A stretch of 64,000 nt of DNA from Candidatus Roizmanbacteria bacterium. Its GTDB lineage: Bacteria; Patescibacteriota; Microgenomatia; UBA1406; GWC2-37-13. The DNA lies in contig JAAXWC010000001.1 in assembly GCA_013335175.1 (NCBI GenBank), forward strand, positions 1 to 64,000, given 5' to 3'. Shown piece by piece: positions 9,610-41,600 of this stretch. Every line of letters begins with the position of its first letter. Positions within the stretch are counted from its first letter, which is position 1. Both the position numbers and the translations under genes were made by a program. The notes beneath the pieces were generated by a model. That model worked only from the letters and a program-made list of their open reading frames with translations. It was not told the origin of the DNA and did not search any database.

Positions 9610-9628
9610 ATTCCGGACAAGCCGGAAT
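9610..9628. repeat. Short palindromic repeat (ATTCCGG type)
   Basis: ATTCCGGACAAGCCGGAAT with 7-bp arms and flanking GATTCC/GACG text, one of the dispersed family present in most larger intergenic spaces here. It lies in the 130-bp gap before the glycoside hydrolase gene. Confidence 0.75.
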
Positions 9629-9676
9629 GACGTATAATTGTCGACGCATTCATGCGGCTTGGTGAAGGCCTACAAG

Positions 9677-19439: not shown

Positions 19440-19735
19440 TGACACCAGTGGCAGGCCGCCATTCTTTTTGAAGCATTGTTGAATTGAATAGATTCCGGAT
19501 CACGCTCATTCCATTCGCTGTCTGGAATGACAGTGAGGATAACAACGACTCCCGGCAAGCGGGAGTGACGTTGCTACTCCTTAGCGTGCCATCCTTTTTT
19601 TGAGAGACTTGGGATCGCCCGCAGGGAGGGAACCCACCGGGTCTCGAAAAAAATAGGTGGCGCGCGATGAACGGATGTCGAGCATGTGCTTGGGAAAGAC
19701 GAGTGGCAGGCCGCCATTCCCTTGGAAACTTCTGA
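19440..19735. repeat. Composite intergenic repeat region
   Basis: About 300 bp of repeats between the add and eno genes. It contains an ATTCCGG/CCGGAAT-type pair, ACTCCCGGCAAGCGGGAGT, an inverted GAGACTTGGG...CCGGGTCTC pair, and (19676-19719) a reverse-oriented relative of the 'GGCCTGCCACTCGTCTTTCCC' type block found at 35.6 and 41.1-41.4 kb. 'GGCAGGCCGCCATTC' occurs twice, at 19450 and 19705. No gene is seen. Confidence 0.7.
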
Positions 19736-29365: not shown

Positions 29366-30541
29366 ATGGCAACGCCCTATTTTTCAGTACTCTCGAAGTC
29401 AAAAAAATCGCGCGCACGGACGGGCGTTATTCATACCTCCCATGGGGAAATTCAAACTCCCGCATTTGTCTCCGCTGCGACGAAGGCAACGATAAAAAGT
29501 CTTACTCCTTCAGAAATTTCTCAGGTCGGTACGCAGGCAGGGTGTGTCAACACCTACCATTTGGTAATGCATCCCGGCGTTGAACTATTGCAAAAAGCTG
29601 GAGGCGCTCATTCGTGGGCGAATCTTTCTCTTCCCCTCATGTCAGACTCCGGAGGATTTCAGGTATTTTCGCTTGCTCAAAATAAAAGGAGAGCCTCAAT
29701 TCGTGGTGAAGAGGAGACGTTGCTTCTTAAAATGTCTGAGGACGGCGTTATCTTTCGTTCCGTATACGATGGTACCGTGCAGACATTTACCCCGGAAACC
29801 GTTATGCGATTTGAGCAGGCAATTGGAGCCGATTTTATAATGGCCTTTGATGAGTGTGTGTATTATCCATCGACCCATGAATACGCACAGAAATCAACAG
29901 AACGCACCCATCGGTGGCTCGAACGCTGTGTTGCTGAGTTCCAAAAAATAAAGGAGCAAAATCCAGAAAATTATCAGCATTTGTACGGGATCATTCAAGG
30001 AGGAACCTTTGAAGATCTTCGTATTGCGAGTGCAAAGTTTGTACACGATCAGCCAACTGATGGCGTTGCTATCGGCGGGGTTTCGGTCGGGGAACCAAAA
30101 GAAGAAATGCGGAAAGAGGTTTCGTGGGTTGCCCCGTACTTGCCTTTGGATCGGCCTGTTCATTTGTTAGGAGTAGGGCACGTGGATGATATTGTTGATT
30201 TAGTTGTTCACGGGATTGATACCTTTGACTGTGTCGAACCAACGCGGCATGCGCGGATGGGGAGTATTTATCAGTGGAAGGACATGGTTCTTATGCTCGA
30301 CAAATTAGAGTCCGAACGCATACCGTACGCAATCGATATTAATCATTTACAGCATAAAAATGATCAGTCTCCGTTGGATGAAAACTGCACCTGCGAAGTG
30401 TGTACGAACGTTTCTAAATCATATCTCCATCATTTATTTAAACAAAAAGAACTGCTTGCCTACACCTACGCTACTATGCACAACCTCACCCTCATGAATC
30501 GCCTCATGGCAGAGATTAGAAGGAGAATAGAAGAAGAGTGA
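29366..30541 (+). CDS. tgt: Queuine tRNA-ribosyltransferase
   Basis: 391 residues from the ATG at 29366; 29351 would add only five residues that the family lacks. Motifs: 'SDSGGFQVFS' (catalytic Asp region), 'GIIQGG', 'IGGVSVGEP', 'LLGVGHVDDI', nucleophile Asp in 'FDCVEPTRHAR' and the zinc site 'CTCEVC...H' near the C-terminus. It exchanges guanine for preQ1 at tRNA position 34, the step before QueA. No preQ1 synthesis genes are seen in this window. Confidence 0.95.
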   Translation: MATPYFSVLSKSKKSRARTGVIHTSHGEIQTPAFVSAATKATIKSLTPSEISQVGTQAGCVNTYHLVMHPGVELLQKAGGAHSWANLSLPLMSDSGGFQVFSLAQNKRRASIRGEEETLLLKMSEDGVIFRSVYDGTVQTFTPETVMRFEQAIGADFIMAFDECVYYPSTHEYAQKSTERTHRWLERCVAEFQKIKEQNPENYQHLYGIIQGGTFEDLRIASAKFVHDQPTDGVAIGGVSVGEPKEEMRKEVSWVAPYLPLDRPVHLLGVGHVDDIVDLVVHGIDTFDCVEPTRHARMGSIYQWKDMVLMLDKLESERIPYAIDINHLQHKNDQSPLDENCTCEVCTNVSKSYLHHLFKQKELLAYTYATMHNLTLMNRLMAEIRRRIEEE

Positions 30542-30564
30542 GTGTAATTATTGATAAATCTCTA

Positions 30565-30594
30565 TTGACAAAGTGTACATTAGTCAAGTATCAT
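30565..30594 (+). promoter_or_regulatory. Promoter of the VapBC-type module
   Basis: TTGACA (30565-30570), 18-bp spacer, TATCAT (30589-30594), then 6 nt to the antitoxin ATG at 30601. This promoter fixes the antitoxin start and again implies a leaderless transcript. Confidence 0.65.
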
Positions 30595-30600
30595 TGGGGC

Positions 30601-30861
30601 ATGAATACTCTTCGAATCTCCGCAACCTATGCTCGAAACAATTTTTTTGAGCTATTGAATCAAGTGGCTCTTGGCAGGGAGGCAGTTATTGAAAAAGATG
30701 GGAAAGAGGTCGCTCTGCTTACTGCAAAGACGACAAAAACCAATTGGAGAGGCTTATTAAAAGCAAGCAAGGCTGTTCATGCAATTTTGAAAGAAGAAAT
30801 GGATGAAAATCCCTTAAGAACACAGAAGGCAAAGAAATTGTTAGGTTCATGGGATAGATAA
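30601..30861 (+). CDS. Phd/YefM-type antitoxin
   Basis: 86 residues. 'RISATYARNNFFELLNQVALGREAVIEKDGKEVALL' is the N-terminal DNA-binding fold of Phd/YefM antitoxins (short phrases: 'ARNNFFELLNQV', 'GREAVIEKDG'). The C-terminal 35 residues are charged and helical, as expected for the toxin-neutralising tail. The toxin gene begins 4 nt after its stop. It should repress its own operon. Confidence 0.82.
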   Translation: MNTLRISATYARNNFFELLNQVALGREAVIEKDGKEVALLTAKTTKTNWRGLLKASKAVHAILKEEMDENPLRTQKAKKLLGSWDR

Positions 30862-30865
30862 TGCT

Positions 30866-31264
30866 ATGAAAATAGTTGTTGATACCAATATTATTATTGA
30901 TTATTTGCGAGGTGGAACTGCTTGGGAAGAATTCCTCACTCACGCGGATCCAAAAGCCGAGCTTTATCTATCGACGCTCGTCGTTTTCGAATTATTCTCA
31001 GGAAAAATCACAATAAAAACAGAGGTTGCAAAAAAAATACACGCATTCCTTTCCTATTTTGAAAAAGTAGATGTTACTGAAAAAATAGCTGAGCGCGCGG
31101 GAAAGATATATCGAGACATTTCTTGCAATCTCGATGTTCCTGATTACATTGTGGCAGCAACCGCTTTAGAAATGAATGCTGCTGTTCTTACATTAAATAA
31201 GAAACATTTTTCTCAAATACCTGAATTAAGATTGCTTGATATTACAAACGTATCACAGCGTTAA
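30866..31264 (+). CDS. PIN-domain toxin (VapC family)
   Basis: 132 residues. The four acidic PIN residues are in 'VDTNIIIDYL' (Asp), 'VVFELFSG' (Glu), 'DVPDYIVAATA' (Asp) and 'LTLNKKHF' (Asn in the usual last acidic position). Such toxins are Mg-dependent ribonucleases that cut tRNA or rRNA. Paired with the antitoxin 4 nt upstream. Confidence 0.87.
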   Translation: MKIVVDTNIIIDYLRGGTAWEEFLTHADPKAELYLSTLVVFELFSGKITIKTEVAKKIHAFLSYFEKVDVTEKIAERAGKIYRDISCNLDVPDYIVAATALEMNAAVLTLNKKHFSQIPELRLLDITNVSQR

Positions 31265-31340: not shown

Positions 31341-31610
31341 CTATTTATATACCTGATCATGAGTCCCGATAGCTACAAAATATGCTTCATTATTCTCGAG
31401 TACGATGTAGACGATACGAATACTTTTATTTATTGATATGCTCCAAAGATTTTGTAAATTACCAGACAGTTTATGAAGACGTAACGAGTGATGGGTTGGC
31501 GATTGTTGAAATAGTTTGAGTTGTTTCTGAATTCGTCGAAATAATACTGCGTCTCGTTTTTTTATTGCTTTTAAATCTTCTACAATATCGGGAGAGAATT
31601 TAAGATACAT
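31341..31610 (-). CDS. RelE/ParE-superfamily toxin
   Basis: 89 residues. 'FSPDIVEDLKAIKKRD', 'LHKLSGNLQNLWSISI', 'SIRIVYIV' and the terminal 'IGTHDQVYK' match RelE/YafQ-type mRNA interferases, with the basic pair and late His-Asp in place. It begins 14 nt after its antitoxin gene. It is convergent with the VapC gene at 76 bp. Confidence 0.82.
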   Translation of the reverse strand: MYLKFSPDIVEDLKAIKKRDAVLFRRIQKQLKLFQQSPTHHSLRLHKLSGNLQNLWSISINKSIRIVYIVLENNEAYFVAIGTHDQVYK

Positions 31611-31624
31611 GTTATGGTTTCGGT

Positions 31625-31879
31625 TTACAATGATTCAAAAAATGTATCAACATTATGTACTGATACCGATTTTTTCATTTCCTGTAGAGCTTTTTTTGTT
31701 TTTTTCTCAAGCAATTCAGAAGCTTGATAGGTAGGAAACTGATCTTTTTCTATCTCTTTGATGATAATGTACTTCACATATTGGGTGACCGGTACCCCGA
31801 GAGCATCAGATTTTTCTTTTAATAGATGATTGAGTTGCGATGATAGACTAAGTTTCAATTGAATTTGTGGAGTTTGCAT
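31625..31879 (-). CDS. RelB-like antitoxin
   Basis: 84 residues. The N-terminal 45 residues ('IQLKLSLSSQLNHLLKEKSDALGVPVTQYV' region) fit a ribbon-helix-helix DNA-binding fold with the beta strand 'IQLKLSL' and 'GVPVTQYVKYII'. The C-terminal part is a charged, neutralising helix. It precedes the RelE-type toxin gene by 14 nt. Confidence 0.75.
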   Translation of the reverse strand: MQTPQIQLKLSLSSQLNHLLKEKSDALGVPVTQYVKYIIIKEIEKDQFPTYQASELLEKKTKKALQEMKKSVSVHNVDTFFESL

Positions 31880-31932: not shown

Positions 31933-32934
31933 TCAAAACACTTGATATGCTTTTTGAAACGTCTCAAAATCAACCTCATTTTTCCCCTCGAGTTGGACGC
32001 GGTCAATCAGTATCTTCCCCTGATTCAGGCTCAGCTTCGTCAATTTTAATCGTTTTTCGATTCCGTTTATCATAATTTTTGTCCATATCCCGGGCCAGGG
32101 AGTAAGGGCGCGGTAATAGTTGAAAAGCGTACGAGAATCGGGTCGATTCCCGACAAGCGGGAATGACGATAATTGGTTATTTTTCTGAAGAAAATAATGG
32201 ATTGCAGGGAAGAGAGTAATGTCAGTTTCTCGATTCCCGACAAGCGGGAGTGATGCCTCGTTTTGCATGATCATGTTCAGCGATTCAAAGGGGATAAACC
32301 CATCGTTTTTTTCCAGCATCCGTGTATACGTAGCTTGAGAATGGTCCTGCGGAGTGAATTGAGATTCAAACAAAGGGGTCGCAATAAGATCGTGAAGGGC
32401 CTGTTTCAGAAGGGGGATTGCTTCCAGAGAAAGGAGCGTTTCCATCTCGTCGCGGGTAGCAACCGAAGGAATGACGACTTCTTTCTGAGAAATAATATGA
32501 CCGTGGTCCAGGAGCGCATCCATTTTCATCAGACTCACGGCCGTGGTTTGATCTCCCATGAGAATCGGGTAGGCAATTGGAGAAGCGCCTCGATACTGAG
32601 GAAGACGCGAAGGGTGAATATTCCAAAAACCGTACTTCGGCTGGTCGAGGAGTGTTGGGGGAATAATCGAGCCATAGGCAAAAAGGACCGCGAGATCAAT
32701 GTTCTGTTCTTTCAAAAACAGGGATGAAATGGTTTTCAGAGGCTGGTCAATGACCGGCAGGTGAAACTTGAGAGCAGTCGTTTTGACAGGGGACGGTTGT
32801 ACGAACTGTTTTCTTCCGACTGGTTTATCGGGTTGGGTTACTACCAAGTCCACAGAAAAGGAATCATCGTTTAATAATGACTCAAGAACGGTGGCTGCGA
32901 TGGTGGGAGTTCCGAAAAATGCTAAAGAAATCAT
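31933..32934 (-). CDS. fmt: Methionyl-tRNA formyltransferase with in-frame palindrome insertions
   Basis: 333 residues. Catalytic domain motifs: 'FFGTPTIAATVLESLL', 'FAYGSIIPP', 'NIHPSRLPQYRGASP' (catalytic Asn and His) and 'LDHGHIIS' (Asp). The C-terminal tRNA-binding domain begins 'RALTPWPGIWT'. Between 'NDGFIPFESLN' and 'RALTPWPG', where family members have roughly 10-15 residues, there are about 50; this extra stretch includes two copies of 'PLVGNR' encoded by palindromic repeats at 32146-32164 and 32233-32251. The frame stays open, so the protein is probably functional with a surface insertion. It formylates initiator Met-tRNA. Confidence 0.93.
   Translation of the reverse strand: MISLAFFGTPTIAATVLESLLNDDSFSVDLVVTQPDKPVGRKQFVQPSPVKTTALKFHLPVIDQPLKTISSLFLKEQNIDLAVLFAYGSIIPPTLLDQPKYGFWNIHPSRLPQYRGASPIAYPILMGDQTTAVSLMKMDALLDHGHIISQKEVVIPSVATRDEMETLLSLEAIPLLKQALHDLIATPLFESQFTPQDHSQATYTRMLEKNDGFIPFESLNMIMQNEASLPLVGNRETDITLFPAIHYFLQKNNQLSSFPLVGNRPDSRTLFNYYRALTPWPGIWTKIMINGIEKRLKLTKLSLNQGKILIDRVQLEGKNEVDFETFQKAYQVF
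32146..32251. repeat. Two palindromic repeats inside fmt
   Basis: ATTCCCGACAAGCGGGAAT at 32146-32164 and ATTCCCGACAAGCGGGAGT at 32233-32251 (one difference), 87 bp apart start to start, a multiple of three. Both have the flanking TGA/CGA text of the intergenic family. On the coding strand each is read as 'PLVGNR'. Confidence 0.9.
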
Positions 32935-32946
32935 AAGAATTTTTGT

Positions 32947-33060
32947 ACGTCATTCCCCTGAACAGGGGAATCCAATGTAAAAATTACCCCTTGGATCTCC
33001 CTCGACGATTGTTCTTTGTACGGGGACTTTCTGCGGTCGCCCGATCAGGTCGAGGATGAC
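32947..33060. repeat. Intergenic palindromic repeats
   Basis: CATTCCCCTGAACAGGGGAATCC followed by CCCTCGACGATTG and a distant GTCGAGGATGAC, that is, two nested inverted pairs. They occupy most of the 159-bp gap upstream of fmt. No gene seen. Confidence 0.7.
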
Positions 33061-35499: not shown

Positions 35500-36060
35500 C
35501 GTCAACCACGTTTGACGTGGTGCAATGGGACCCTTCCTCTCGTGTCACCCGTTTTTTTTGTCCCCCGCCCGCCTGTTTGTCATTCCGGCGAAGTCCGGAA
35601 TCGTTGTTTCAAAAAGAATGGAGGCCTGCCACTCGTCTTTCCCACGCACTTGACTTCGAGCATCACACCACCGTCAAAAGTGCGTGAGACCCCTGACTCG
35701 TGTCACCCATTCTTTTTTTTACTGGTTTGTTTGTCACTCCCGCTTGCCGGGAGTCGTTGTTATCCTCACTGTCATTCCGGACTGGGGAGCCTGCCCCGGA
35801 CTGCGCCGATCCGGGGGAATCTATTCCATTAAACAACGCTTTAAAAAGAATTGCAGCCGAATATTGGTCATTGCGAGGAGTGAAATGACGAAGCAATCTT
35901 ACCCGCACGTCATCCCCTCTCTCTCGTCATTCCCTCGAAGGAGGGAATCCATGGTAGGAGTCTGATGCAAGGGTCGGGATGGATCCCCGCCTACGCGGGG
36001 ATGACGATGCAACGTCATTCCGGATCGCATTCACTTCGTTCATTTGTCCGGAATGACGGT
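35500..36060. repeat. Long composite repeat region between rho and the CsoR-family gene
   Basis: Most of the 934-bp gap. 35539-35828 is a 290-bp block about 98% identical to 41209-41498 (same length, about five differences). Around it are the palindromes CCACGTTTGACGTGG, ATTCCGGCGAAGTCCGGAAT, ACTCCCGCTTGCCGGGAGT, CATTCCCTCGAAGGAGGGAATCC and GGATCCCCGCCTACGCGGGGATGA. Open frames across it are products of repeat DNA. The last 120 bp before the promoter at 36178 hold nothing I recognise. Confidence 0.85.
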
Positions 36061-40954: not shown

Positions 40955-41600
40955 GTCAAATCCTTCGGCTTAGACTCAGGATAGTGAGCCATGTGTTCAC
41001 GAGGATGACGATGTATTTTTTGTCATTCCAGGCTCAAGGTTGTCATTCCGGACAGCGAATAGAATGAGCTCAGCGTCGTCATTCTGGCAAACGTAGTGCG
41101 TCCAGAATCGTTGTTTAGTTTCAAAAAGAATGGAGGCCTGCCACTCGTCTTTCCCACGCACTTGACTTCGAGCATCACACCACCGTCAAAAGTGCGTGAG
41201 ACCCCTGACTCGTGTCACCCATTTTTTTTGTCCCCCGCCCGCCTGTTTGTCATTCCGGCGAAGTCCGGAATCGTTGTTTCAAAAAGAATGGAGGCCTGCC
41301 ACTCGTCTTTCCCACGCACTTGACTTCGAGCATCACACCACCGTCAAAAGTGCGTGAGACCCCTGACTCGTGTCACCCATTCTTTTTTTTATTGGTTTGT
41401 TTGTCACTCCCGCTTGCCGGGAGTCGTTGTTATCCTCACTGTCATTCCGTCCTGAGGAGCCTGCCCCGGACTGCGCCGATCCGGGGGAATCTATTCCATA
41501 AAGCACACAATGGGGCCATAAAAGCGGTTATATTATATAGATTCCGGCTCGGAGGCCGGAATGACGGGGGAAACGGATCCCGGATCCCTGGCATGCCCTG
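40955..41600. repeat. Long composite repeat region with tandem duplication
   Basis: Fills the 791-bp gap between the terminator and the prepilin gene. 41209-41498 is about 98% identical to 35539-35828. A shorter unit starting GTTTCAAAAAGAATGG occurs at 41118 and again at 41276 (period 158 bp, nearly identical for about 110 bp). ATTCCGGCTCGGAGGCCGGAAT and other palindromes lie at 41530-41565. No gene seen; frames here are repeat artefacts. Confidence 0.88.

Follow-up and report, generated by a model that had tools for sequence, protein, structure and literature searches.

The window, as the 64,000-nucleotide stretch of DNA analysed here is called, contains an fmt gene with two short palindromes in its interior. 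The gene, the palindromes and the related elements of the window considered below are as follows.

31933-32934, minus strand: fmt, methionyl-tRNA formyltransferase, 333 aa, an intact open reading frame with Pfam Formyl_trans_N and Formyl_trans_C domains
32098-32304, minus strand: Fmt inter-domain linker, residues 211-279
32230-32253, minus strand: REP copy 1 (23-nt match 32232-32254), read as SLPLVGNR, residues 228-235
32143-32168, minus strand: REP copy 2 (23-nt match 32145-32167), consisting of CGTC, ATTCCCG-CTTGT-CGGGAAT and CGA
32950-32971, plus strand: intergenic CGTC-type REP (TCATTCCCCTGAACAGGGGAAT, tail CCA), lying ~16 nt ahead of the start codon of fmt
9610-9630, minus strand: intergenic REP of the CTTGT-loop subfamily found in fmt, with a CCGG stem
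19548-19568, minus strand: REP of the CTTGC/T-loop subfamily found in fmt, within a composite repeat

The fmt product is the single match to Fmt that the assembly (1.45 Mb, 46 contigs) contains, and it conserves N105, H107 and D143, residues with a catalytic role in this enzyme. Fold comparison of the predicted structure gave matches to E. coli 1fmt/2fmt and B. anthracis 4iqf. The AlphaFold model has a mean pLDDT of 85.9, and within it pLDDT falls below 50 over three or more residues only at positions 233-238 and 260-263, both of which overlap REP-encoded peptides. A sequence-only reading had placed two palindromes in the inter-domain linker of fmt and had both translated as PLVGNR; they are indeed present there, in an intact reading frame, and are read in frame to give PLVGNR at residues 230-235 and 259-264. 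Copy 2 has a 7-bp stem and a 5-nt loop, and its nucleotides 32143-32166 encode SFPLVGNR (residues 257-264). Copy 1, in which the tag has decayed to CATC (for CGTC) and the stem carries one mismatch, looks the older of the two. The copies are identical at 23 of 24 nt (TCAYTCCCGCTTGTCGGGAATCGA) and their flanks are unrelated, which argues for separate insertion events by members of one family and against local duplication. The palindrome is open in five of its six reading frames, so that read-through inside genes is possible. As to the neighbors of fmt, a toxin-antitoxin-like pair (a Phd/YefM-like protein and a PIN-domain protein) is located at 30538-31264 on the plus strand, and a ParE/YoeB-like toxin with a small ORF upstream, also a toxin-antitoxin-like pair, at 31341-31879 on the minus strand.

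The palindromes inside fmt have many counterparts elsewhere. When up to three mismatches are allowed, the 23-mer has six matches in the window and none in 100 dinucleotide shuffles, while the pattern TTCCCGN{3,9}CGGGAA occurs at 20 genomic sites as compared to none for its reversed control. The pattern TCATYCCN{6,24}GGRAT has ~205 matches in the genome, a count in which a few sites are scored on both strands, versus 6 for the reversed pattern. The elements form a high-copy family of about 200 members dispersed across the genome. The REP load of the 57 genomes searched is uneven, ranging from 0 to 205 matches. A catalogue drawn from 247 kb around REP sites, and thus giving a partial census of intragenic cases, holds 140 candidate elements, 118 of them well paired. 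In 112 of these 118 the TC is preceded by CG (82 elements) or TG (30 elements); the tail is CCA in 57, CGT in 36 and CGA, as in the fmt copies, in 5. An 8-bp stem with a 4-nt loop is found in 47 of the 118 and the 7-bp, 5-nt arrangement of the fmt type in 40, the subfamily in fmt, with the loop CTTGT and the tail CGA, being a variant whose stem is one base pair short. Elements less than 100 bp apart form 13 tail-to-tail (TT), 10 head-to-tail (HT) and 9 head-to-head (HH) pairs, if heads are assigned by the convention of PMC3733652. The genome contains five Y1_Tnp matches, two of them at contig ends, and the flanks that were read contain no fmt-type REP. Mobilization of the REPs by a RAYT is therefore unsupported.

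The Neisseria dRS3 element has the core ATTCCC...GGGAAT in common with the elements described here. Judged by their sequence, the fmt elements fit the CGTC-tagged REPs, a superfamily that takes in dRS3 as well as RPE-4 and RPE-6 of Rickettsia conorii (PMC3733652). CGTC-tagged REPs have an unpaired CGTC, TGTC or CCTC tag at one end, an 8-9-bp stem beginning with an A-T and a T-A pair, a 4-5-nt loop and a short unpaired tail with the consensus CCA; they pair mostly head-to-head, have no dedicated transposase, and some lie in frame inside genes, a number of which are hit twice (Di Nocera et al. 2013, PMC3733652). The elements studied here resemble the CGTC-1 REPs of that work in their CGTC or TGTC tag, in a stem that starts with A-T and then T-A, in the tail CCA and in their high copy number. 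Their commonest class likewise has an 8-bp stem and a 4-nt loop, they are mostly intergenic and partly intragenic, and none of the five Y1_Tnp matches adjoins an fmt-type REP. They differ from CGTC-1 REPs in that the fmt subfamily combines a 7-bp stem with the 5-nt loop CTTGT and the tail CGA, in that their host belongs to the CPR (Microgenomatia), and in that pairs, with heads assigned as above, do not appear to be predominantly head-to-head. The dRS3 elements belong to the same CGTC-1 class but lie mostly in large clusters (PMC3733652), whereas the elements here are dispersed and in part intragenic. GTAG REPs with their RAYT are similar as high-copy, mobile-like short palindromes; unlike them, the present elements carry a CGTC tag instead of GTAG, and the RAYT-like genes are not flanked by fmt-type REPs. 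The analogy to Rickettsia RPEs drawn from the sequence alone proved apt, since RPE-4 and RPE-6 fall within the same superfamily (PMC3733652). As with these two, short palindromes of the CGTC superfamily occupy protein-coding genes of a reduced genome without breaking the frame, a gene sometimes holding two of them, although the host phylum and the target genes are different. Elements of the RPE-1 type are ~150 bp long, encode a conserved peptide and are inserted in frame in functional genes, according to PMC10969869, which refers to Ogata et al. (2000, 2002); they share with the present elements the in-frame addition of peptide segments, but single elements here measure 24-27 nt and not ~150 bp.

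To place the palindromes in an evolutionary setting, 54 distinct Fmt sequences were aligned, taken from genomes that belong to the family, order and class of the host, so that the window protein was compared with 53 others. After DGFIP....NE the relatives go straight to PLT..(E/K)LP, whereas the window Fmt adds ~8 residues, ASLPLVGN(R). Copy 1 amounts to a net insertion of ~8 aa relative to the 53 related proteins, with borders that are uncertain by about one residue, the nearest Fmt being ~49% identical over the whole protein and no relative exceeding this value; at this distance neither an empty site nor a target duplication or polymorphism was visible. Copy 2 sits in the length-variable second half of the linker, and its borders lie where the alignment is poor. 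The stretch from DG to WPG spans 69 aa in the window Fmt, compared with a median of 55 aa (range 22-96, n=53) in the relatives. Removal of two 8-aa REP units leaves 53 aa, close to this median, and each palindrome thus corresponds to about one 24-nt in-frame step. The linker had been described as several times longer than usual; this is true relative to canonical Fmt such as 4iqf, whose linker of ~22 aa is about one-third as long, but not relative to the family. The alignment indicates that a long linker is normal in this Fmt family, that most of the extra length is family-wide and that only 16 of these additional residues are REP-encoded. The PLVGNR segments are absent from all related Fmt proteins aligned (n=53), so the proposed in-frame insertion stands, and the comparison argues for insertion rather than another origin. 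Separately, the linker in the Fmt of G036 (L208) measures 96 aa and includes a long insert (EQAKGADSSTWHAGPPTIETPSTSTS...) in which no REP is recognizable.

In-frame REPs are also found in other genes of this genome. In the YchF GTPase (L112:1501-2637, on C20 of this genome) residues 229-243 are largely REP-encoded and have no counterpart in at least 75% of relatives. A PMT_2-type glycosyltransferase (L106:2277-3806) has ~56 to 70 extra residues between positions 143 and 214, which hold two in-frame REPs and are flanked on both sides by sequence that aligns with relatives. The third case is a 1227-aa protein without a Pfam match (L126:478-4161, C2:92477-96160), whose relatives are ~950-1100 aa long. 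Its in-frame insertions at ~122-180, 280-353 and 533-618 contain REPs singly or in clusters, and a further REP is located near residue 1121; at least three REP-containing insertions add ~200 residues in all, and the frame is open. Like the protein-coding palindromes of the RPE type, then, the elements in fmt, ychF, the PMT_2 gene and the 1227-aa gene leave the frame open, and the inserts are missing from most orthologues. Several other candidates were set aside. In the ClpC-like ORF L110:2347-4851 a REP falls at residue 73; it is taken to lie upstream of the true start and not within the gene, because relatives of the ORF begin near residue 117. The 596-aa ORF at C17:40600-42387 is not a long gene of its own and has REPs near its N-terminus only, and it was not counted. 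An ABC ORF and an HD ORF, with REPs near their N-termini only, were left out of the count, as was a 600-aa ORF with two REPs that has no Pfam match.

The same Fmt linker carries palindromic repeats in five sampled genomes (G000, G007, G028, G035 and G050). That of G007, which represents another genus, contains a canonical CGTC REP, GGATTCCCGCCTCCGCGGGAATGAC, read as SLDSRLRGND; its opposite orientation implies that it arose independently. In G028, G035 and G050 the linker holds a second palindromic family, TTCGACN{3,4}CTCRGG, which has 14, 27 and 6 matches in the respective genomes, as compared to at most 1 for the reversed control. The YchF loop similarly contains repeats in four genomes, G000 and three of other genera (G006, G012 and G018). 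In G006 and G012 the repeat is TCATYGCGA...GAAGCRATC, with 7 and 4 genomic matches, and in G018 it is TCATCCTGAACTTGTTTCAGGAT, with 4 matches at up to three mismatches. The peptides that result from these repeats are unrelated (PLVGNR, SLDSRLRGND, TLRQAQGDGEQSRTI and VLREVEG). The occurrence of different families, frames and orientations at one place points to a tolerant linker and to independent insertion. On balance, we consider it probable that the inter-domain linker of Fmt and one loop of YchF serve as recurrent landing sites, or hot spots, which palindromic families unrelated to each other would have entered in frame, and independently, in several genera belonging to one CPR family. If so, REP insertion would regularly generate variation in the linkers of core proteins of that family.

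Taken together, we hold with high confidence that the fmt palindromes are CGTC-tagged REPs that were inserted at separate times into a flexible Fmt linker and were kept by tolerance, probably without function for Fmt. It is exceedingly improbable that the PLVGNR segments are instead ancestral linker that resembles REPs by chance or convergence. Linker length does vary from 22 to 96 aa across the family, so that some extra sequence is normal, but two copies that are nearly identical to each other also match ~200 genomic elements, the shuffled sequences yielded no match, and PLVGNR is present in no relative. The repeated hits on one Fmt linker and one YchF loop could also be read as recruitment, in which a linker hairpin or peptide modulates Fmt (by translation pausing, length tuning or tRNA contact) and palindromes are for that reason found in several lineages. 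We regard recruitment as very unlikely, as the families, orientations and frames differ and the peptides are unrelated, which fits tolerance and not a selected sequence; moreover, copy 1 in fmt is without an intact tag and part of the stem, and the REP segments are predicted to be disordered. Hits on one linker across genera would similarly agree with site-specific insertion, the fmt linker being a preferred target of a REP-mobilizing enzyme. However, at least two unrelated repeat families are involved, they occupy different linker positions, and aligned subfamily copies, compared by eye, share no flanking motif beyond tag and tail, which makes a preferred target highly improbable.

Insertion followed by tolerance suggests the following course of events. 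The REPs would most likely have been copied to new sites by some mobilizing activity, and each insertion in fmt would have added ~24 nt; as this length is divisible by three and no stop codon occurs in the frame that is read, the gene would have stayed open. The Fmt product would have gained two PLVGNR loops that are predicted to be disordered. The REP segments are probably neutral in Fmt, and they would have been kept because the linker tolerates extra residues, whereas insertions that shifted the frame or struck folded parts of a protein would have been removed by selection. Most surviving REPs would then lie between genes, with a few in-frame ones persisting inside genes in disordered linkers.

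In-frame intragenic REPs have been known since 2013 (PMC3733652), and the kind of element described here is therefore not new. We found no report on REPs in the literature on Patescibacteria and none of in-frame intragenic REPs in CPR bacteria; as far as the literature consulted shows, the host group, the genes hit and the recurrence across genera are new. Protein-coding palindromes, which are best known from Rickettsia and have been described in some other bacteria, are thus extended to a reduced CPR genome, where they occur in core translation-related genes. Recurrence of distinct repeat families in one and the same linker provides a natural insertion series that maps where proteins tolerate sequence, and that allows one to ask whether REP insertion is neutral linker filling or a source of useful variation. 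For annotation, peptides such as PLVGNR, DSRLRGND and IPAFAGMT are best treated with caution, as read-through repeats and not as homologous protein sequence.

Larger repeats are also present in the window. A composite repeat of ~300 bp that contains several REPs occurs at 35539-35835 and 41209-41505 in copies that are 98% identical; a partial inverted copy is located at 19444-19730, and related copies are found in C2, C21, C22, C25 and C44. A giant repetitive ORF of 7468 aa occupies 42395-64000 on the minus strand, extends to contig position 64801 and is made up of many direct repeats of 48-300 nt.
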